Positions 4,957 through 19,489 of a DNA stretch of 36,202 nt are shown piece after piece; position 1 is the first letter of the stretch; each line of letters starts with the position of its first letter. The stretch comes from Fidelibacterota bacterium. GTDB lineage: Bacteria > Fidelibacterota > Marinisomatia > SCGC-AAA003-L08 > D37C17. Below the pieces are notes generated by a model, which made no database searches, was not told the DNA's origin, and saw nothing but the letters and a program-made list of their open reading frames with translations. Where the stretch lies: the NCBI GenBank assembly GCA_030747125.1, contig JASLLI010000009.1, positions 1 to 36,202 on the forward strand, written 5' to 3'. A program made the position numbers and the translations under genes.

Positions 4957-7833
4957 ATGAACAATACCAATAAAATATTAGCAGGGATTACCTTTTTATA
5001 TTCCCTCGTCATATACATACTCACCATGGCTCCCACTACCTCCTTTTGGGATTGCGGAGAATTCATAGCTACTTCCATCATTATGGGCGTTCCCCATCCT
5101 CCGGGTACACCTCTCTATCTGCTTTTAGGGAACTTCTTTTCACAACTCCCCACTTTTGATGATTTAGGGGCGCGGGTGAATCTCATCTCACCCCTCTTTA
5201 GTGCATTTGCTGTTATGTTTCTCTACCTCATCATCGTGCAGTTAATCGAGGAATACCGTGGCAAGGTAAATAGCTGGCCTGACGGACTTATCACCTATGG
5301 TAGTGCGCTCATAGGAGCATTCACATTTGCAGTTACAGATTCACATTGGTTTAATGCGGTGGAGGCAGAGGTTTATTCCCTCTCTACCTTTTTCACCAGT
5401 ATAGTGGTCTGGCTTATATTGAAATGGAGTAAAAATTCAGGGCATTCCGGAAATGTGCGTTACATTCTCATCATCGCCTATATGTTTGGTCTCGCCATTG
5501 GAATTCACTTATTGAATCTGTTGGCATTACCCTTTATTGCCCTCATCATTTATTTCAATAAATACGAATTCAAATGGAGTACCTTCCTGTATACCATTCT
5601 CTTCACTTTGGGAATATTCATGATCATTTACTTAGGCATTATTAAAGGGATTCCAAATCTTGCCAACAGCTATGGTTTGACAGTGCCTGCCCTTATCGTT
5701 CTGGGAATATTTGGAATAACCGCATACGCCGTAGTGAAAAGACATCCTCAGTTTTCCACTTTACTCGCCTGCCTGATACTCATTATTGTAGGCTTTTCAA
5801 CCTATACAACCATATTCATTCGTGCAACCCAACACCCTGCTATTAATGAAAATAATCCTGATTCTTTAGAAGGGGCATTGGCGTACATGAACCGTGACCA
5901 ATACGGCGACTGGAAAATTCTTGACCCTGCCTTTACATTAGCACGGGCAGAATGCTCTTATTCTTCCCGCTGGACAGAAAACAAAAATAATCCAACTTCT
6001 AAAGAAGAATTAAACTTCCTTTGGAACTATCAAATCAAAGAAATGTATCTGCGCTATTTTGCCTGGCAGTTTATTGGTAAAGAAAAACACGAAAACCGTA
6101 GCTGGGAACTGGTAACTCTGAAGGGTGATCTCATTAAAAAATTAAGAGGAATTGACTGGGGAAGGTACGGTCTGCCGTTGCCTCTCCTTTTCGGGCTTGT
6201 GGGATTGGTGTTCCATTTTAGTCGGGACTGGAAAAGAGCATTGGCAGTCCTCTCACTGTTCCTCGCAACAGGAATCATGATTATTCTCTATCTAAACCAA
6301 TATGATCCGCAGCCACGAGAGCGGGATTATTCCTATGTAGGTAGTTTCTTTACTTTTTCAATCTGGATTGGAATCGGGGTTGCAGCCTTGCAGGAGAAAA
6401 TCCGTGAATGGCTGGAAGGGGTTGAAATTGCCGCATTTGTGTCCATTGGACTGACGGGAATTGTTTTTGTGGCTATGCCTATTTCTATGCTGGCAAAGGA
6501 CTTTAAAGAGCATAACCGTGATGGAAATTATGTAGCCTGGGATTATGCCTACAACATGCTTAATTCCTGTGAGCCTAACGGAATTATTTTCACAAACGGG
6601 GATAATGATACCTTTCCCCTTTGGTATATCCAGGAAGTGGAGGGAGTCCGTAAAGATGTACGGGTAGTGAATTTAAGTCTGCTGAATACACCCTGGTATA
6701 TTGAACAATTGAAGAACGAGCCTCCGCAACTTCCATTGCAGCTGAAAGATGAGAGCATACAAAAACTGGATCCGGTCTTTGGTACCGCCTACGCACTGAA
6801 TAAATGGACGGCTAAATGGAATGAGTTGAAGTCTATGTACAATGAGTTTACCAAAGCGCAGTATGGTACTCCTTATTCTGTTGCCAATTTTGGAATTTTA
6901 AATAATTGGGGTCCGACTGAAGCCACCATTGGCAGCGGGGATGAAAAGTTTCAATGGAATATCTCCCCTAAACTGAGTAATTATCTGCGTGTTCAGGATA
7001 TTATGATACTGCAAATTCTGGAAGATGCCATGGCAACCAGACCAGTTTATTTTGCAGTAACCGTAGCACCTGGAAACCGCTTGGGTTTGGATAGCTATCT
7101 GGAGATGGAGGGGTTGGTATATCGTGTAACTTATGAAAAAGATAATGGACGGTCTTCCATGCCGCGGTTGAACTTTGACAGAATGGTACAGAATATTTCT
7201 GAAGCTCCGGATTATGAGAACAAAATTGTAAACTCTGAAGATTATTTAGAACATATAAATGCTGGAAACGGCATTTACCGCTATACCAATTTAGATAATG
7301 GAGAAGTCTTTTTTAATGAAAACATTCAACGGCTGATTCAAAATTACCGCTCCAGTTTTTTACAATTAGGTCTTGAAAAATTATATTCCGGCAATGAGGA
7401 TGATAAAGAAACCACATTGGAACTATTAGATAAAATGGAAGCGTATTTCCCCACCGCTGTCATCCCCACTACCGACGCTGATTTGGATATTCAAATTGGC
7501 AGAATATATAAACAGGCAGGCAAACCGGAGGAATTAAAAGAACGCCTTTCTCAGGTAGTTGAACGGGAAGATGTAAGTCTGGAAACCCAAATGTATGTGG
7601 GGCAAATCTACTTAAATGAATTTCAGGATTATGAAGCGGCAATATCCCATTTTGAGAGTTTGTATAATGCGTATCCTTATATTTCAGATTTTCTCTATAC
7701 ATTGGTGCAAGCCTATGCAAAAGCTGACCGCATGGAAGATGCAAAAGAAAAACTGGATTTATGGCTCATGTCTCACCCAAATGATTCACAGGCTATGGAT
7801 TGGCTTTCCATATTAAATCAAACGGTACAATAA
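4957..7833 (+). CDS. DUF2723 protein O-mannosyltransferase-like membrane enzyme with C-terminal TPR region
   Basis: Multi-spanning membrane protein of the DUF2723 (PF11028) family, within the PMT-type GT-C glycosyltransferases. These use a polyprenyl-phosphate sugar and act on the outer face of the inner membrane. The diagnostic segments are visible: WDCGEF at residues 31-36 in the first outer loop (the PMT acidic site), GVPHPPGTPLY just after, QPRERDYSYVGSF in the middle, and NGDNDTFPLWY opening a soluble region. There are about 10-12 hydrophobic helices up to about residue 510. The last 150 residues contain TPR-like helical pairs. The family includes human TMEM260, reported to O-mannosylate Ig-like IPT domains. 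The substrate here is unknown. It overlaps the next glycosyltransferase by one base, so the two are probably co-translated. Confidence 0.88.
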   Translation: MNNTNKILAGITFLYSLVIYILTMAPTTSFWDCGEFIATSIIMGVPHPPGTPLYLLLGNFFSQLPTFDDLGARVNLISPLFSAFAVMFLYLIIVQLIEEYRGKVNSWPDGLITYGSALIGAFTFAVTDSHWFNAVEAEVYSLSTFFTSIVVWLILKWSKNSGHSGNVRYILIIAYMFGLAIGIHLLNLLALPFIALIIYFNKYEFKWSTFLYTILFTLGIFMIIYLGIIKGIPNLANSYGLTVPALIVLGIFGITAYAVVKRHPQFSTLLACLILIIVGFSTYTTIFIRATQHPAINENNPDSLEGALAYMNRDQYGDWKILDPAFTLARAECSYSSRWTENKNNPTSKEELNFLWNYQIKEMYLRYFAWQFIGKEKHENRSWELVTLKGDLIKKLRGIDWGRYGLPLPLLFGLVGLVFHFSRDWKRALAVLSLFLATGIMIILYLNQYDPQPRERDYSYVGSFFTFSIWIGIGVAALQEKIREWLEGVEIAAFVSIGLTGIVFVAMPISMLAKDFKEHNRDGNYVAWDYAYNMLNSCEPNGIIFTNGDNDTFPLWYIQEVEGVRKDVRVVNLSLLNTPWYIEQLKNEPPQLPLQLKDESIQKLDPVFGTAYALNKWTAKWNELKSMYNEFTKAQYGTPYSVANFGILNNWGPTEATIGSGDEKFQWNISPKLSNYLRVQDIMILQILEDAMATRPVYFAVTVAPGNRLGLDSYLEMEGLVYRVTYEKDNGRSSMPRLNFDRMVQNISEAPDYENKIVNSEDYLEHINAGNGIYRYTNLDNGEVFFNENIQRLIQNYRSSFLQLGLEKLYSGNEDDKETTLELLDKMEAYFPTAVIPTTDADLDIQIGRIYKQAGKPEELKERLSQVVEREDVSLETQMYVGQIYLNEFQDYEAAISHFESLYNAYPYISDFLYTLVQAYAKADRMEDAKEKLDLWLMSHPNDSQAMDWLSILNQTVQ

Positions 7834-14066: not shown

Positions 14067-14379
14067 GGTTTATCCTTTTTGATACATTTTAAATAAAAAA
14101 TTGAGTAATAAATTTAATGGGATTCTTCATTGATTCTTTATTTTTGTTTAGTTCAAAAAGAATAAAATCGATAAATTGGTTGAGTGAAGAAAGATAAGAT
14201 TAAATAGTTTGTTTACTATAATTCTATATATTAAGCTTTTGACTGTAACTAAATATTATATTTTTTATTAGCATGCATAAATTCACAAAACAGCCACATA
14301 AAATTAGTGGGAATAACCCAATAAATGACAATAATAGAGTTTATCGGAATGTTGTGTGAAATTTTCAGGTTTATAAACT
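14067..14379. other. AT-rich intergenic stretch containing the left boundary of a gene cassette
   Basis: About 310 bases, strikingly AT-rich, between the exonuclease start and the acetyltransferase. I see no coding frame. The notable piece is TCGGAATGTTGTGTG at 14344-14358. It shares TCGGAAYGTTG with 15079-15089 at the far end of the acetyltransferase unit, and its GTTGTGTG is the perfect complement of CACACAAC at 14929-14936. This marks the likely recombination point (after G14351). Promoter activity for the acetyltransferase probably lies here too, but no convincing -35/-10 pair stands out. No integrase gene or clear attI layout is visible. Confidence 0.55.
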
Positions 14380-15086
14380 ATGTCTAAAGATATACGTATT
14401 GAAACAGATGCTCTTTTACTTAGGTTCTTTAACTCTAATGATATTAAAAACATATTTAAATTAAGCCAAGAAGAAGATTTAAAAAAATGGATTCCTGATC
14501 AAGTATACAAAGATGAAAAGGAAGCCAAAAATGTATTAAAATATCTAATTTCTGCTTACAATCAACCTATTTCACCTGCTGACAAACCTTTTGTATTGGG
14601 AATTGAATATAAAAAAACAAATGAAATTATTGGACATGTTGGTCTTAGCCCAATAGATAATGGAATTGAGATTGGTTATGCTATTGGTGATAAATATAAA
14701 AGACAAGGTTTTGCTACAGAGGCTGTTTCGGCAATTTCTTCTTGGGCTATTAAAAGTATAAATATTTCTGAAATATTTGGCATTGTCGCATCTGAAAATA
14801 TTGCATCATCTAGAGTTCTTGAAAAGTCAAATTATATTTTTATCAAAGAAAAAAAAATGATGCATCATAATCTTTTAAAGAATGTAAAAATATATAAATA
14901 TAAATGACAACCATAAACCTGAAAACAACACACAACACGACTTCATCACTTCGGAAAAGTCAAGCTTTCCCTGCGGGGCTGCGCCCGACATTCGACCTTT
15001 GGTCGAACGCTGCGGTCACTTTGTTCCCTTGCCTCGCTGACAAGTTTGCACATAGTAAACTTTGCTCGGTCTGATAAGTCGGAACG
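14352..15086 (+). mobile_element. Integron-type gene cassette carrying a GNAT acetyltransferase
   Basis: A 735-base unit holding one gene in the forward direction and ending in an attC-like site, as in integron cassettes. The predicted crossovers lie within GTT at 14351-14353 and 15086-15088. In the excised circle, G15086 would join the TTGTGTG at the unit's own start. The attC arms would then pair over eight bases (CACACAAC with GTTGTGTG), compared with four bases in the integrated form. That cassette-specific complementarity is the rule for integron cassettes and is hard to explain by chance. No integrase is present in this window, so it may be an integrase-less (CALIN-type) cluster or the distal end of a longer array. 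Confidence 0.65.
14380..14907 (+). CDS. GNAT-family N-acetyltransferase (RimJ/RimL-like)
   Basis: Acetyl-CoA dependent N-acetyltransferase of the Acetyltransf_3 type. The N-terminal beta strands begin IRIETDALLLRFFNSNDIKNIFKLSQEED. IIGHVGLSPIDNGIEIGYAIGDKYKRQGFATEA contains the acetyl-CoA pyrophosphate-binding loop (RQGFAT) and motif A. ASSRVLEKSNYIF is the usual C-terminal motif B. The substrate is unknown: it could be a small molecule, an antibiotic or a protein N-terminus. At 175 residues it is full length. It is visibly more AT- and Lys/Ile/Asn-rich than its neighbours, has no Shine-Dalgarno sequence, and sits alone inside the cassette described separately, which points to horizontal acquisition. 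Confidence 0.88.
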   Translation: MSKDIRIETDALLLRFFNSNDIKNIFKLSQEEDLKKWIPDQVYKDEKEAKNVLKYLISAYNQPISPADKPFVLGIEYKKTNEIIGHVGLSPIDNGIEIGYAIGDKYKRQGFATEAVSAISSWAIKSINISEIFGIVASENIASSRVLEKSNYIFIKEKKMMHHNLLKNVKIYKYK

Positions 15087-15092
15087 TTGGTA
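14929..15092 (+). other. attC-like recombination site (imperfect palindrome)
   Basis: The outer arms are CACACAAC (R'', 14929-14936) and GTTGGTA (R', 15086-15092), pairing as CAAC/GTTG. A short unpaired asymmetric spacer follows (AC against GGAAC). Then the L arms pair, GACTTCATC (L'', 14939-14947) with GATAAGTC (L', 15073-15080), eight pairs with one extra C in L''. On the bottom strand this extra base is an extrahelical G, a hallmark of attC sites. The interior holds further hairpins: TTCGACC/GGTCGAA (14991-15007, perfect 7 bp) and AAGTTT/AAACTT (15042-15062). At about 160 bases it is long for attC but near the upper range. It is much more GC-rich than the flanking gene. Confidence 0.65.
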
Positions 15093-15098
15093 TTCATA

Positions 15099-15687
15099 AT
15101 GACCCAAACACGAAAAAAAAAGAATAAAAAGAATAGCATATTTATTGCGACAAGTTTAGACGGCTATATCACTGACAAAAATGGAGGACTTGATTGGCTG
15201 CATTCCATACCAAATCCCGATAATGATGATATGGGATTTGTGGAATTCAATAACGACATAGATGCTGCTTGTTATGGGACGAACAACATTCGAAACCTTT
15301 ATTGGATTTGATATTCCTTGGCCATATGATAAACCCGTCTTCGCATTGAGCAAATAGCTAAAAGAAATACCAGAATTACATAAAGACAAAGCCTTTTTAG
15401 TCAAAGGAACTTTTAAAAAAAATTTAGAACAAATTCACGGAAAAGGATATGAGAGATTATACATTGATGGAGGAACAACAATCAGGATTTTTTTTAAAGC
15501 TGATCTGATTGATGAAATGATACTTACGACTATTCCAGTTTTATTAGGTGGTGGCTCTTCACTGTTCGGAGAGTTACCAAACGAACTGAAATTAGAGTTG
15601 ATTGGAACAAAAACATTCCTAAATCAGATAACGCAGAGATATTATAAACGAAAAAATAATACGAAATGCCCTACCTTTCATACCTGA
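15099..15687 (+). pseudogene. Broken RibD/DHFR-like reductase gene
   Basis: The N-terminal part reads NSIFIATSLDGYITDKNGGLDWL, typical of the RibD C-terminal/dihydrofolate reductase-like family (YyaP/YwjB-type). The frame breaks near 15282-15288, where one extra base in AACAACA shifts it. The other frame then restores TFETFIGFDIPWPYDKPVFALS, interrupted by a TAG at 15355-15357. It then continues through ERLYIDGGTTI and TIPVLLGGGSSLFGEL to a TGA. So there are at least two lesions. The ATG lies 12 bases after the cassette crossover G15086, the usual place for a cassette gene. Sequencing error could explain one lesion but is unlikely for both. Confidence 0.85.
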
Positions 15688-15802
15688 GATCGGTTGGCGA
15701 TAATTAAAATAAGATTCATGTTATTTAAGTCCCCCCCTTTTTTTTTTAGATTTTTATCACAGGATTCTCCAGTAAATCATAAATCAAGTAAAGAGGAAAT
15801 AG

Positions 15803-15955
15803 ATGAAACATACAATCATAACGATTCTGGCGGTTACGCTTACAACAGGTGGTATGGCACAAGATCTTAAAACAAATACCATTGTCACAGACCTTGCTGC
15901 TCTGGCTTTCGGTGGGATTGCCGGTGAATACCGGCGCGTACCCACATCTTCTTAA
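15803..15955 (+). pseudogene. Truncated secreted or outer-membrane protein start
   Basis: Fifty codons beginning MKHTIITILAVTLTTGGMAQ, a convincing signal peptide with a cleavage site after Ala-Gln, preceded by an AGAGGAAAT Shine-Dalgarno-like stretch. The mature part starts DLKTNTIVTDLAALAFGGIAGEY, which recalls the opening strand of small outer-membrane beta-barrel proteins (LKTN motif). After that the frame runs into the complement of a ribosomal protein S21 fragment and stops, so the gene has lost its remainder at about 15921-15932. The family assignment is tentative; the truncation is clear. Confidence 0.5.
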
Positions 15956-16010
15956 ATCGACGTAAGGCGCGTTCGAAGGATTCCTTTTCTCTTACCTGGG
16001 CTTCAACCAC
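15921..16010 (-). pseudogene. rpsU: Truncated ribosomal protein bS21 gene start
   Basis: Read on the minus strand, a GTG start preceded at good spacing by GGAGGTG opens a frame whose first 28 codons match bS21: VEAQVREKESFERALRRF, then KK and RAGI. Similarity ends after RAGI. The frame then crosses into the oppositely oriented truncated secreted-protein gene and stops near 15885. Normal bS21 is about 55-70 residues and ends in a basic tail, which is missing here. This is therefore a 5' fragment with its ribosome binding site, apparently moved here by recombination. The intact rpsU must be elsewhere in the genome. The GTG may be a decayed ATG. Confidence 0.75.
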
Positions 16011-16014
16011 GTAA

Positions 16015-16164
16015 ATCACCTCCAAAGGTGTCGTTTGTGGTTACCGAATTGAAGAAATTGAGGATGAATTTGAATTGTATAAAAGATGCAGACAAATGGA
16101 AAAGTTGATTGATGAATTGGCAAAAGGTCGAAAAATGGAGAATATTCTTAGATCACCAATGTAA
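16015..16164 (+). pseudogene. C-terminal remnant of an unknown gene
   Basis: An open plus-strand frame without a start, reading into [31 protein letters not shown] and MENILRSPM before TAA. The charged, helical look (Glu/Lys/Arg-rich, heptad-like leucines) suggests the coiled tail of a real protein. It begins directly behind the leader of the bS21 fragment, so another junction probably lies near 16020-16040. I do not recognise the parent protein. Confidence 0.35.
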
Positions 16165-16358
16165 ACATTAAATCTCTTTGAATCATGTTACTATCGTCCT
16201 TTTCAATCTCCTTCCTGCCTCAATTTACCCTCTCCTAAAACATAGCTCACTTCCTGTACATGGGGTTTAAGTTTGACAGGTGGTAAGCCAGTGAATATTG
16301 TAATTTCATCATCCACAAAAAACTAATCAATTGAATATATCGAGAGAAAATAATCTTA
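16165..16358. other. Intergenic stretch before the DEAD-box helicase
   Basis: Together with 15688-15802 and the three remnants between, this makes a gene-poor 670 bases. Here I see no supported gene. A minus-strand frame of 21 codons (MMKLQYSLAYHLSNLNPMYRK) is too short to call. In 15688-15802 the only marks are a C7-T10 homopolymer run at 15731-15747 and GTTGGCG at 15693, which might be the next, eroded cassette boundary. The promoter of the helicase presumably lies just upstream of 16359 in the AT-rich part. Confidence 0.3.
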
Positions 16359-18107
16359 ATGGAATCGTTTAATAATACCAAACTGAACGAAAATATCCTA
16401 ATAGCGATAAATGAAATGGGCTTTGAAAAACCCACCCTCATTCAGGCTCAGACCATACCCCATCTCATGTTTTCAAAGCAGGATCTTATTGCTACTGCCC
16501 AAACCGGTACGGGCAAAACCGGTGCATTTGGTCTGCCTGCAGTACATCTCACCCACATTGAAGAAAAGCAGACCCAAACACTGGTACTCTGTCCCACCCG
16601 GGAATTGTGCATCCAGATTGCTAAAGATTTGACCAATTTCTCTAAATATATAAACGGACTCAATATCGTAGCGGTTTATGGTGGAGCTAGTATAGATACT
16701 CAGACCAAAGCACTCCGTAAAGGTGCCCATATTGTTATCGGTACTCCCGGTAGGACAAAAGATCTCATCCGGCGGAAACGATTACATCTGGCAGATATTC
16801 GCCGTATCATTCTAGATGAAGCGGACGAAATGCTCACTATGGGTTTCAAGGATGACCTTGAGGCGATTTTGGCTGAAACACCGGAGAAAAAACAAACCAT
16901 TCTCTTTTCAGCCACCATGTTTAAAAAAATCGTATCCATTACTAAAACCTATATGCAAAATCCTGTTGAAATTTCGGCTTCACGTGTGAATTTAGGTGCC
17001 GAAAATGTGAAACATATATACTTTATGGTTCATGCCTCTGATCGATACGAGGTTCTTAAGCGCATTGCAGATATGAATCCCAATATCTACGGTATTACCT
17101 TTTGCCGCACCCGTAAGGAAACCAAGGAAATTGCCAATAAACTCATGCATGATGGCTATAATGCAGATGCCATTCACGGTGATCTATCCCAGGCTCAACG
17201 GGATGAGGTCATGGGCCAGTTCAGAAAGCGCAAACTACATATGCTGGTGGCTACTGATGTGGCTGCCCGGGGTTTGGATGTAAATGACCTGACCCATGTA
17301 ATCAACTTCAACCTGCCCGATGATGCTGAAATTTATGTACACCGCAGCGGCCGAACGGGTAGGGCTGGCAAAAGTGGAATTTCCATTGCCATCATCCATA
17401 CGCGTGAAACCCGCAAGATCAGGGAAATTGAACGGATATCAAAAATATCGTTTTCTAAAGAACGGGTTCCCAGTGGGAAGGACATTTGTCAAAAACAGCT
17501 CTATGCCCTAATAGATAAAATTAAAAAAGTTGACGTTGATGAAAATCAGATCGAACCTTTTCTCCCCACCATCTATGAGAAGCTGGAATCATTGGATAGA
17601 GAGGAACTCATCAAGCATTTTGTATCCGCTGAATTCAATCAGTTCTTGACCTATTATAAAAATGCTAAGGACATCAATCTTTCCAAGAGCAAAAAACCAA
17701 AGCAAAAAGATCAACGGGAAAAACTCAGTCGTAAGGAACGCCAATGCTCTACCTTTGAGAGCTTCTTTATTAATGTGGGTAGTAATCATAATGTGAATCC
17801 TGCCCGTTTAATGGGCATTATAAATGAAGGTTTGAATTCCCGTGATGCCATGATCGGCAGGATCGATGTGATGAAAAAATTCTCCTTCTTTGAAATTGAT
17901 GCCAGTAAAAAAAATCAAATCATTAAATCTCTCAATGGTAAAATTATCGGTGGTACTAAATTATCTGTTGAAGTGGCAAAAGAAAAACCTGAGTCCGATC
18001 TATCTTTTTCAAAGGGTAGATCATCCCGCTCAAAAGGAAGAAGTAAAAAGGAAGATAGAAAACGCAGCAAAAAAAAACAGAGTGGTTCCAGAAGACGAAA
18101 AAAATAA
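16359..18107 (+). CDS. deaD: DEAD-box ATP-dependent RNA helicase (DeaD/CsdA type)
   Basis: RNA-unwinding ATPase used in ribosome assembly, mRNA turnover and cold adaptation. All core motifs are present: Q-motif GFEKPTLIQAQTIP (21-34), motif I AQTGTGKT (47-54), Ia PTREL, DEAD at 153-156, SAT at 184-186, and motif VI HRSGRTGRAG (328-337). A DbpA/CsdA-type RNA-binding domain follows at about 465-545, ending GTKLSVEVAK. The last 30 or so residues are a strongly basic Arg/Lys/Ser tail, common in cold-shock helicases, which probably binds RNA nonspecifically. At 582 residues it is close to CsdA length. DeaD versus another paralogue is inferred from the C-terminal domain. It lies directly beside the gene-remnant island. 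Confidence 0.92.
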   Translation: MESFNNTKLNENILIAINEMGFEKPTLIQAQTIPHLMFSKQDLIATAQTGTGKTGAFGLPAVHLTHIEEKQTQTLVLCPTRELCIQIAKDLTNFSKYINGLNIVAVYGGASIDTQTKALRKGAHIVIGTPGRTKDLIRRKRLHLADIRRIILDEADEMLTMGFKDDLEAILAETPEKKQTILFSATMFKKIVSITKTYMQNPVEISASRVNLGAENVKHIYFMVHASDRYEVLKRIADMNPNIYGITFCRTRKETKEIANKLMHDGYNADAIHGDLSQAQRDEVMGQFRKRKLHMLVATDVAARGLDVNDLTHVINFNLPDDAEIYVHRSGRTGRAGKSGISIAIIHTRETRKIREIERISKISFSKERVPSGKDICQKQLYALIDKIKKVDVDENQIEPFLPTIYEKLESLDREELIKHFVSAEFNQFLTYYKNAKDINLSKSKKPKQKDQREKLSRKERQCSTFESFFINVGSNHNVNPARLMGIINEGLNSRDAMIGRIDVMKKFSFFEIDASKKNQIIKSLNGKIIGGTKLSVEVAKEKPESDLSFSKGRSSRSKGRSKKEDRKRSKKKQSGSRRRKK

Positions 18108-18343
18108 TAGAAGATAAAACTCACCAGTATTAATATGAAATATCTACCTTCCTTTCTTCCTGCATTTGCTTTTAGACAGAGCAGGTTTAATGGTTGGAAT
18201 TATCTTAGTTATTTCCTTAGGTTGGATAGCCTGCAACAGATGGGATACTTTTAAAACTCTATTCAAATAATTTGTCCCTCATCCCCTCTGGTTTAAACTA
18301 TGGGATTGACTTACATAAAAAAATTGTACAACTTCATATAGCC

Positions 18344-18847
18344 ATGAGAAAAAAAATATTACTTATTAGTGCAACCTCACGCAACAATTTAACCTTATCA
18401 AATAAAATACAGGAGATTACTGCAAACCTTGATGTTCAGTGTGACCTTATAAATCTGGAAGAATTTGAAATCCCCCTCTATACTCCTATTCAACAAAAAT
18501 CCGGCACCCCCTTACCAGTCCAGGAATTAATTCCCAGGTTTATTGATGCCTCAGGATTTATTATTTGTGCTCCTGAATACAATGGCAGCATTCCTCCTAT
18601 TTTGACCAATTTAATTGCATGGATTTCTGTATCAACAGATAAATGGAGGGATGTATTTAATGGGAAAATAGCATTAATCGGGACACATAGCGGTGGCGGT
18701 GGTAACAATTTTCTGCAGGCTATGAAAATTCAGTTGGCACATTTAGGAGCCATAGTTTTACCCCGAAATATTGTAGTTAACAGCTATGCTGAATTTAATC
18801 CGGATTCAACCAGAGAAAAAATTAAACAACTTATTGAGTTATTGTAA
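18344..18847 (+). CDS. NADPH-dependent FMN reductase
   Basis: Flavodoxin-fold reductase of the FMN_red family (SsuE/chromate reductase-like), reducing flavin or quinone-type acceptors with NAD(P)H in the cytoplasm. The opening KKILLISATSRNNLTLSNKI gives the FMN phosphate loop. PEYNGSIPPILTNLIAWIS is the family signature, and GTHSGGGGNNFLQAMKIQLAHLGA is the second flavin-binding segment. The frame is open from a TTG at 18272, but the added 24 residues look non-native. The ATG at 18344 gives the usual N-terminus and 167 residues, slightly short but complete. The physiological acceptor is unknown. Confidence 0.85.
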   Translation: MRKKILLISATSRNNLTLSNKIQEITANLDVQCDLINLEEFEIPLYTPIQQKSGTPLPVQELIPRFIDASGFIICAPEYNGSIPPILTNLIAWISVSTDKWRDVFNGKIALIGTHSGGGGNNFLQAMKIQLAHLGAIVLPRNIVVNSYAEFNPDSTREKIKQLIELL

Positions 18848-18934
18848 TTTATCTTCCTTTATTACTGCATTCATTTTTCTTAAATTCTAAAAATTCTCAC
18901 TAATATAAGGTTGAATATCAATCTCAATAATTCC

Positions 18935-19489
18935 CTATGGCTTACAACTAAACCATGGCTCGGATAATAAATCACCATCAAAATATTTTTTATCTTCTAC
19001 GCCTTTAATTTCTTTGCCGGCATCAACAGCTTTTTGATACCAGTGAATACAATCCGGATTGTTTCCTAATGCTGCATAGGCTCTTGCTTTGGACTCGTAA
19101 GCATAAGCTAAATCAAAATCTTTAAACTCATGCTCTGTAGTTAAGCGCATGGTTTCATCTGCATATTGCAATGCTTCTTTCCCCTTGCCTAACACAGCAT
19201 ATACACGGGACATCATCCAATACCCCCGCTGTTCATTTACAGGTTCAAATTTAGGTGATTTCAGCCAATGATATAATGATGCTTTTGCAAAATGTATCAT
19301 GCGTACATCATCCTGCTCATTACGGTCATCATTACCTAATAAATTCCATGTCTGGATATTCATTTCAATACCCATATAATGGTGCATCTTGTCAGCGTCG
19401 GTGTATTCACTCACCTTTTTCTCCTCCGTTTGTGTAATAGCTGTTGCCAGAATAATAAAAATTATAACCCAATGGCTAATCTGACTCAT
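18935..19489 (-). CDS. Small secreted TPR-like protein
   Basis: 184 residues with an N-terminal hydrophobic signal or anchor segment (about residues 5-21). After a linker, helical pairs resemble tetratricopeptide repeats: GYWMMSRVYAVLGKGKEALQYADE and AYESKARAYAALGNNPDCIHWYQKAVDAG both carry the small/large TPR pattern. The end contains a single conserved-looking Cys (WFSC). It is probably periplasmic and a protein-interaction module. Its ATG overlaps the stop of the upstream lipoprotein gene by four bases (ATGA), so the two are translationally coupled and likely cooperate. No specific function can be assigned. Confidence 0.75.
   Translation of the reverse strand: MSQISHWVIIFIILATAITQTEEKKVSEYTDADKMHHYMGIEMNIQTWNLLGNDDRNEQDDVRMIHFAKASLYHWLKSPKFEPVNEQRGYWMMSRVYAVLGKGKEALQYADETMRLTTEHEFKDFDLAYAYESKARAYAALGNNPDCIHWYQKAVDAGKEIKGVEDKKYFDGDLLSEPWFSCKP

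Follow-up and report, generated by a model that had tools for sequence, protein, structure and literature searches.

The 36,202-nucleotide stretch of Fidelibacterota DNA analyzed here (the window) carries a GNAT acetyltransferase gene that lies between two G/TT sites and is followed by an imperfect palindrome, which raises the question of whether this gene arrived as an integron cassette and, if so, what kind of integron it came from. The original prediction had proposed an isolated integron gene cassette, acquired horizontally and forming a candidate CALIN. The integron-type nature of the unit and its horizontal acquisition held up, and we consider it likely that positions 14351-15670 are the stranded, decaying remnant of an integron-type array, with cassettes that most likely belong to a platform of non-IntI type that is common in Flavobacteriaceae and present in the phylum of the host (Table 1).

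Table 1. Features of the GNAT cassette and its surroundings in the window.
Feature	Position	Strand	Remark
4.9-kb insertion relative to congener G005	14067..18934		flanking genes 68 bp apart in G005
Left boundary TCGGAATGTTG, half-site	14344..14354	+	motif search
GNAT cassette 5' end (R' box and extension)	14351..14374	+	complementary to 14913-14936 at 21/24 positions
GNAT cassette (G/TT convention)	14352..15086	+	735 bp
GNAT acetyltransferase gene, intact, 175 aa	14380..14907	+	PF13302, 4e-23
R'' box CACACAAC	14929..14936	+	motif and repeat search
L'' arm CGACTTCATCA	14938..14948	+	extrahelical C14944, G on the bottom strand
L' arm TGATAAGTCG	15072..15081	+	pairs with L''
Right boundary TCGGAACGTTG	15079..15089	+	crossover predicted between 15086 and 15087
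RibD-type cassette remnant	15087..15670	+	R'' box broken at 15670, attC lost
DUF2200-like gene, 3' fragment	16024..16162	+	name is our reading

Between the G/TT points at 14351/14352 and 15086/15087, the unit contains a single intact gene with an attC-like site at its 3' end, as is the case for integron gene cassettes. All motifs of the original prediction were found where it had placed them, and the attC layout was confirmed as well: R''/R' and L''/L' form inverted repeats with spacers, and L'' (CGACTT-C-ATCA) pairs with L' over 10 bp, leaving one extrahelical base, while GTTGGTA begins at 15086. In known integrons, the bottom strand is the recombining strand. In the joined form expected of an excised circle, the bottom strand was predicted to fold better than the top strand (-42.7 versus -38.3 kcal/mol), and the bottom strand left in place folds at -26.5 kcal/mol, the in-place palindrome being only moderately stable (z -1.6). 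The palindrome has a GC content of 52% compared to 27% for the GNAT gene, and an Rfam scan of the window yielded tRNA only.

The cassette-specific complementarity of the ends had been derived from a perfect 8-base match between the R'' box and GTTGTGTG at the left end of the unit (14351-14358). This match is not significant by itself: when the 2.9-kb region was shuffled 200 times, an 8/8 complementary pair turned up in 146 cases. However, the complementarity is real at its full length: counted from GTT, the ends of the cassette are complementary at 21 of 24 nucleotides, a value reached by none of the 200 shuffles (best shuffle, 18), and the unit ranks first among 25,092 pairs in the window (runner-up, 17). 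Both boundaries share TCGGAAYGTTG, as predicted, and a search for more such sites throughout the 1.7-Mb genome returned only these two copies, on one strand and 735 bp apart; since about 1.6 copies are expected by chance, the signal lies in their closeness on one strand rather than in their number. The left boundary is a half-site that could be either what remains of an attI-like site or the end of an attC that has been lost. Its interpretation as the attI of a resident platform was rejected, since no recombinase adjoins it.

The repeat also spans 25 nucleotides at 88% identity as an inverted repeat (14350-14374 versus 14913-14937), flanking the GNAT gene in the manner of terminal repeats, so that a transposon-like unit or a hairpin accident, i.e., a gene between chance or MITE-like repeats near an unrelated palindrome, has to be weighed. 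We regard this as highly improbable, because the repeat stops exactly at the R boxes of the attC, no target-site duplication was seen around 14350-14937, the end pattern of the GNAT cassette recurs in array cassettes, and the right GTT boundary is that of an independent cassette in other genomes (see below).

The cassette is not isolated, as had been proposed, since a RibD-type pseudogene cassette and the DUF2200-like fragment follow it. The RibD pseudogene, starting at 15099, contains a frameshift near 15270 and a TAG codon at 15355-15357, and the first 123 nucleotides of the DUF2200-like fragment are 80% identical to a Flavobacteriaceae gene located in a cassette region. As the RibD gene is dead and its attC gone, the region reads as one in decay; most probably, both cassettes arrived within an array, either in this lineage or in a donor, and decay has continued since then. 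The predicted lack of an integrase was corroborated: the genome search revealed only two Xer-type recombinases and none of IntI type, and thus no complete canonical integron; a recombinase of the Flavobacteriaceae platform family described below was not found in this genome either, which therefore lacks that integron-like platform as well. While the window resembles a CALIN in that it holds cassettes in a genome without integrase, that term in its strict sense denotes a cluster of at least two attC sites, and the window has one complete site, the left boundary being a half-site and the attC of the RibD cassette being lost.

Both cassettes lie within an insertion of 4868 bp between an exonuclease gene, to the left of the GNAT unit, and a gene at 18935. 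In two further congeners (G002 and G004), the exonuclease gene adjoins the same downstream neighborhood, an order consistent with an insertion in the window. Besides the GNAT unit, the broken RibD-type gene, and the DUF2200-like fragment, the insertion contains a DEAD helicase gene, with relatives in the same family and order, and an NADPH-reductase-like gene. Its absence from the congeners, the shift in base composition (27% GC in the GNAT gene), and the draft state of the genome (107 contigs) would also fit an assembly chimera in which Bacteroidota DNA was joined into a metagenome contig, but host genes flank the stretch on both sides within one contig, the helicase gene with its relatives in the same family lies inside it, and the RibD gene has decayed instead of reproducing a known genome, which makes a chimera very unlikely. 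In congener G005, a transposase-like ORF (REP-associated type, by our reading) was identified between the exonuclease gene and a dehydrogenase gene (L040, 2093-2638), indicating that the same neighborhood takes up DNA in another lineage as well.

Relatives of the RibD gene provided a test of the right boundary that does not depend on the palindrome. A search with the last 100 codons of the pseudogene yielded 31 loci, the best 17 of which are all from Bacteroidota, with up to 87% protein identity. The best relatives from Flavobacteriia are 73-86% identical at the DNA level, and they extend from one predicted boundary to the other, beyond which the flanks are unrelated. In blastn comparisons with loci from Maribacter flavus (L093), isolate NBU2977 (L094), Bizionia (L099), and Gramella (L103), the alignments start at 15082-15086; in these and four other loci, they stop at 15670, a position within the R'' box of the following site. 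The relatives have GTTGGCATTCAT...GAAATGCCAAC in common, the sequence outside is unrelated, and in L094, L099, and L103 the boundary is variable in its first four bases. This matches what cassette exchange would predict, and since the relatives begin at the predicted crossover, the right boundary is confirmed independently. The RibD cassette also stands out as a clear instance of a cassette exchanged between Bacteroidota and a different phylum.

For the GNAT gene, no relative was found at E 1e-25 in 398 Flavobacteriales genomes, nor in a search of genome contigs, and its attC DNA, compared with 60 relatives and plasmids, matched only itself or short stretches by chance. The motif TATACTARACGTTG alone occurs at 27 sites in Flavobacteriaceae, modestly above a reversed control and of use only because the flanks were then checked. 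Candidates from viral contigs were discarded, as none of 72 stretches with AAGTCGGAACGTTG proved to be a cassette on inspection; a strict two-arm pattern had no match in these contigs.

Starting from the hosts of the RibD relatives, we arrived at attC-like sites that form arrays in Flavobacteriaceae. A covariance model (R1) was built from 15 sites, initially chosen by complementarity; CAAC and GTTG are all that it includes from the boxes, and the variable box bases thus played no part in finding sites. On a single strand and at E < 1e-3, R1 matched 16, 16, and 14 sites in three loci (L181, L193, and L190; training sites included), and in Maribacter, a recombinase gene (L139, 8520-9653) is followed by 12 attC matches, all on the plus strand and none used in training, up to the RibD cassette. 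The L''/L' stem covaries, with double changes at 13 of 14 pairs and 90.8% paired compared to 20-46% when slid, in an alignment that was fitted to the model and thus leans towards it. A model match lies beside RibD in Maribacter (L093, 1e-9), and there is one on either side of it in Bizionia (L099, 8e-4 and 8e-3) as well as on a plasmid of Flagellimonas (L138, 3e-20 and 5e-7).

Defining cassettes as the intervals between model matches gave 49 cassettes. Their own two ends match at a rate of 0.92-1.0 at positions 1-9, in none of the 49 at position 11, and in 61-90% at positions 12-14, whereas the two boxes within one attC, which stem from neighboring cassettes, match only at 0.25-0.55 at positions 4-10. 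At position 11, A opposite C on the top strand is commonest (36/49), which gives a T.G wobble in the bottom strand. The GNAT cassette has eight matches, mismatches at positions 9-11, and matches at 12-14, a pattern also present in a cassette of the L181 array and in a cassette from the phylum of the host (L319); the match then continues for another 10 nucleotides, which is unusual, the complementarity reaching 24 nucleotides compared to typically 14 in array cassettes. The ends of the RibD cassette, with nine matches followed by three mismatches, represent a second class seen in the arrays. Neither R1 nor a second model, R2, detected the attC of the window; the site is therefore not assignable to the Flavobacteriaceae attC type, and its link to the platform is one that we infer. 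In part, this can be attributed to the limited sensitivity of the models, which also missed the RibD-flanking sites in L094 and L103.

The recombinase heading these arrays comprises PF13495 and PF00589 domains and contains the family's R, K, HxxR, H, and Y residues. Two sequences scored 243 and 229 bits with the XerA-type model NF040815 (cut-off, 220), which they pass, and 212 and 210 bits with the integron-integrase model TIGR02249, below its cut-off of 265. In an alignment with IntI proteins from the phylum of the window, the IntI-specific insertion in the catalytic domain is absent from the recombinases of both Flavobacteriaceae and the host phylum, with runs of 31 and 11 columns that are filled in IntI being empty here. 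The recombinase forms a clade apart from 19 IntI proteins in a tree obtained by a quick method with two outgroup rows and long branches. The nearest solved chains are XerC-like 4a8e (155 bits), IntI4 (2a3v, 136 bits), and XerA (5hxy, 130 bits), but unlike NF040815 proteins and IntI4, the flavobacterial recombinase heads cassette arrays and its Flavobacteriaceae members have about 100 additional N-terminal residues. This extension (L139, L141, and relatives) has no Pfam match and is missing from most homologs in the phylum of the window.

A search at 1e-50 detected the recombinase in 85 of 121 genomes from Flavobacteriaceae, about 25 of which have close homologs. A matched cassette start lies downstream at 18 of 30 recombinase loci, within 135 bp of the stop codon in 17 cases, and upstream at none; at several loci, it is found behind a palindrome such as ATAAACACAATTGTGTTTAT. 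Within the phylum of the window, 35 of 244 genomes encode the family as well, and several loci there have a GTT boundary (attI-like) shortly past the stop codon, with cassettes and R1 matches behind it. Thus, a platform consisting of a recombinase, an attI-like site, and a same-strand attC array is present in Flavobacteriaceae and in other genomes of the host phylum. Several contigs from this phylum (L232, L234, L230, and L240) break off at or just past the GTT boundary that follows the recombinase, which is what variation of the arrays within the population would lead one to expect. In congener G002, the gene of this family (L314) has neither an attI nor a cassette behind it.

In the mechanism that we propose, the recombinase without the IntI insertion would be the enzyme acting on these attC sites, with an attI-like site within about 40-135 bp of its gene and the array following in the same orientation. 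It would recognize the folded bottom strand of attC and cut at G/TT, so that single cassettes would be excised as circles and inserted at attI. As the ends of a cassette are complementary to each other and not to those of its neighbors, an attC would fold completely only in a free circle or next to a second copy of its cassette, a restriction that should favor insertion over excision.

Canonical integrases have to be considered as the source as well, since IntI proteins above the cut-off were detected in 42 of 245 genomes of the phylum, including congener G005, and the site in the window has a classical attC layout with one extrahelical base. A classical integrase, resident in congeners or once acting in trans, could hence have inserted ordinary cassettes and then been lost. 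We consider this unlikely: the relatives of the RibD cassette sit in arrays headed by the non-IntI recombinase, none of 15 RibD-type host genomes tested has an IntI above the cut-off, and the extended end complementarity with the mismatch at position 11 is a signature of the non-IntI arrays. Furthermore, the canonical IntI genes examined, many of which lie on short contigs, had no comparable array next to them. Neither a search for CGGAA[CT]GTT, which gave no clusters, nor an arm-based attC scan, weak by itself with a background of about 0.2 matches per 2.4-kb shuffle, revealed clear arrays near them. The integron origin originally assumed is thus retained in type, while the relatives suggest that it derives from the platform with a recombinase devoid of the IntI-specific domain, and not from classical integrons. 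The canonical integrase gene of G005 (C52, 5-916) lies at a contig edge, followed by a VapBC-like pair.

Compared to sedentary chromosomal and class 1 integrons (IntI, attI, attC), the platform and its cassettes share single-gene units in one orientation, the R''-L''...L'-R' site with its G/TT boundary, an attI beside the integrase gene, and cassette-specific complementarity of the R boxes. They differ in that the recombinase lacks the IntI-specific insertion, its gene precedes the cassettes and has their orientation, and the end complementarity comprises about 10 bp, a mismatch at position 11, and up to three further pairs. The additional domain of IntI has been described as necessary for integron recombination (PMC9668308) and was used as a criterion for selecting integrases in surveys (PMC2426708). 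Conservation of the insertion is incomplete in one subgroup of tyrosine recombinases that is integron-like, and the passages on this subgroup do not link members without the insertion to cassette arrays (PMC8138268). For Bacteroidetes proper, the IntegronFinder 2.0 survey reported one complete integron where earlier only cassette-less integrons were known (PMC9024848). Our literature search, for which most subscription papers and preprints were beyond reach, did not turn up any description of cassette arrays in Flavobacteriaceae or of a recombinase of this kind at their head. Overall, we lean towards an undescribed, widespread class of integrons in Flavobacteriaceae and the phylum of the window, with a recombinase without the IntI domain and with extended end complementarity plus a conserved mismatch, which would be invisible to surveys based on that domain and whose cassettes would cross phyla, with the window as one point of arrival, and reach a plasmid beside erm(F). 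Were such a recombinase to move cassettes in Flavobacteria, this would mean that a large marine pool of mobile genes has been recorded as almost empty, and a comparison of both enzymes could directly test what the domain does.

The mobilizable plasmid mentioned above is that of Flagellimonas marinaquae (NZ_CP092416.1, 5531-8440), where the RibD cassette with its two flanking attC matches adjoins erm(F) and a tyrosine recombinase annotated as xerA. Near Brumimicrobium cassettes (L092), a group II intron-type reverse transcriptase, by our reading, is encoded on the minus strand (6371-7687), and a 150-nucleotide repeat is present at 6363 and 10066. In the textbook model, the attC body travels along with its cassette. 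Among seven RibD loci (L093, L094, L097, L098, L099, L103, and L138), however, the gene and the R boxes are conserved between hosts, while the attC body after AACAA is unrelated, and the body appears to have been exchanged. In L094 and L099, the attC body after RibD resembles the host's site on the opposite side.
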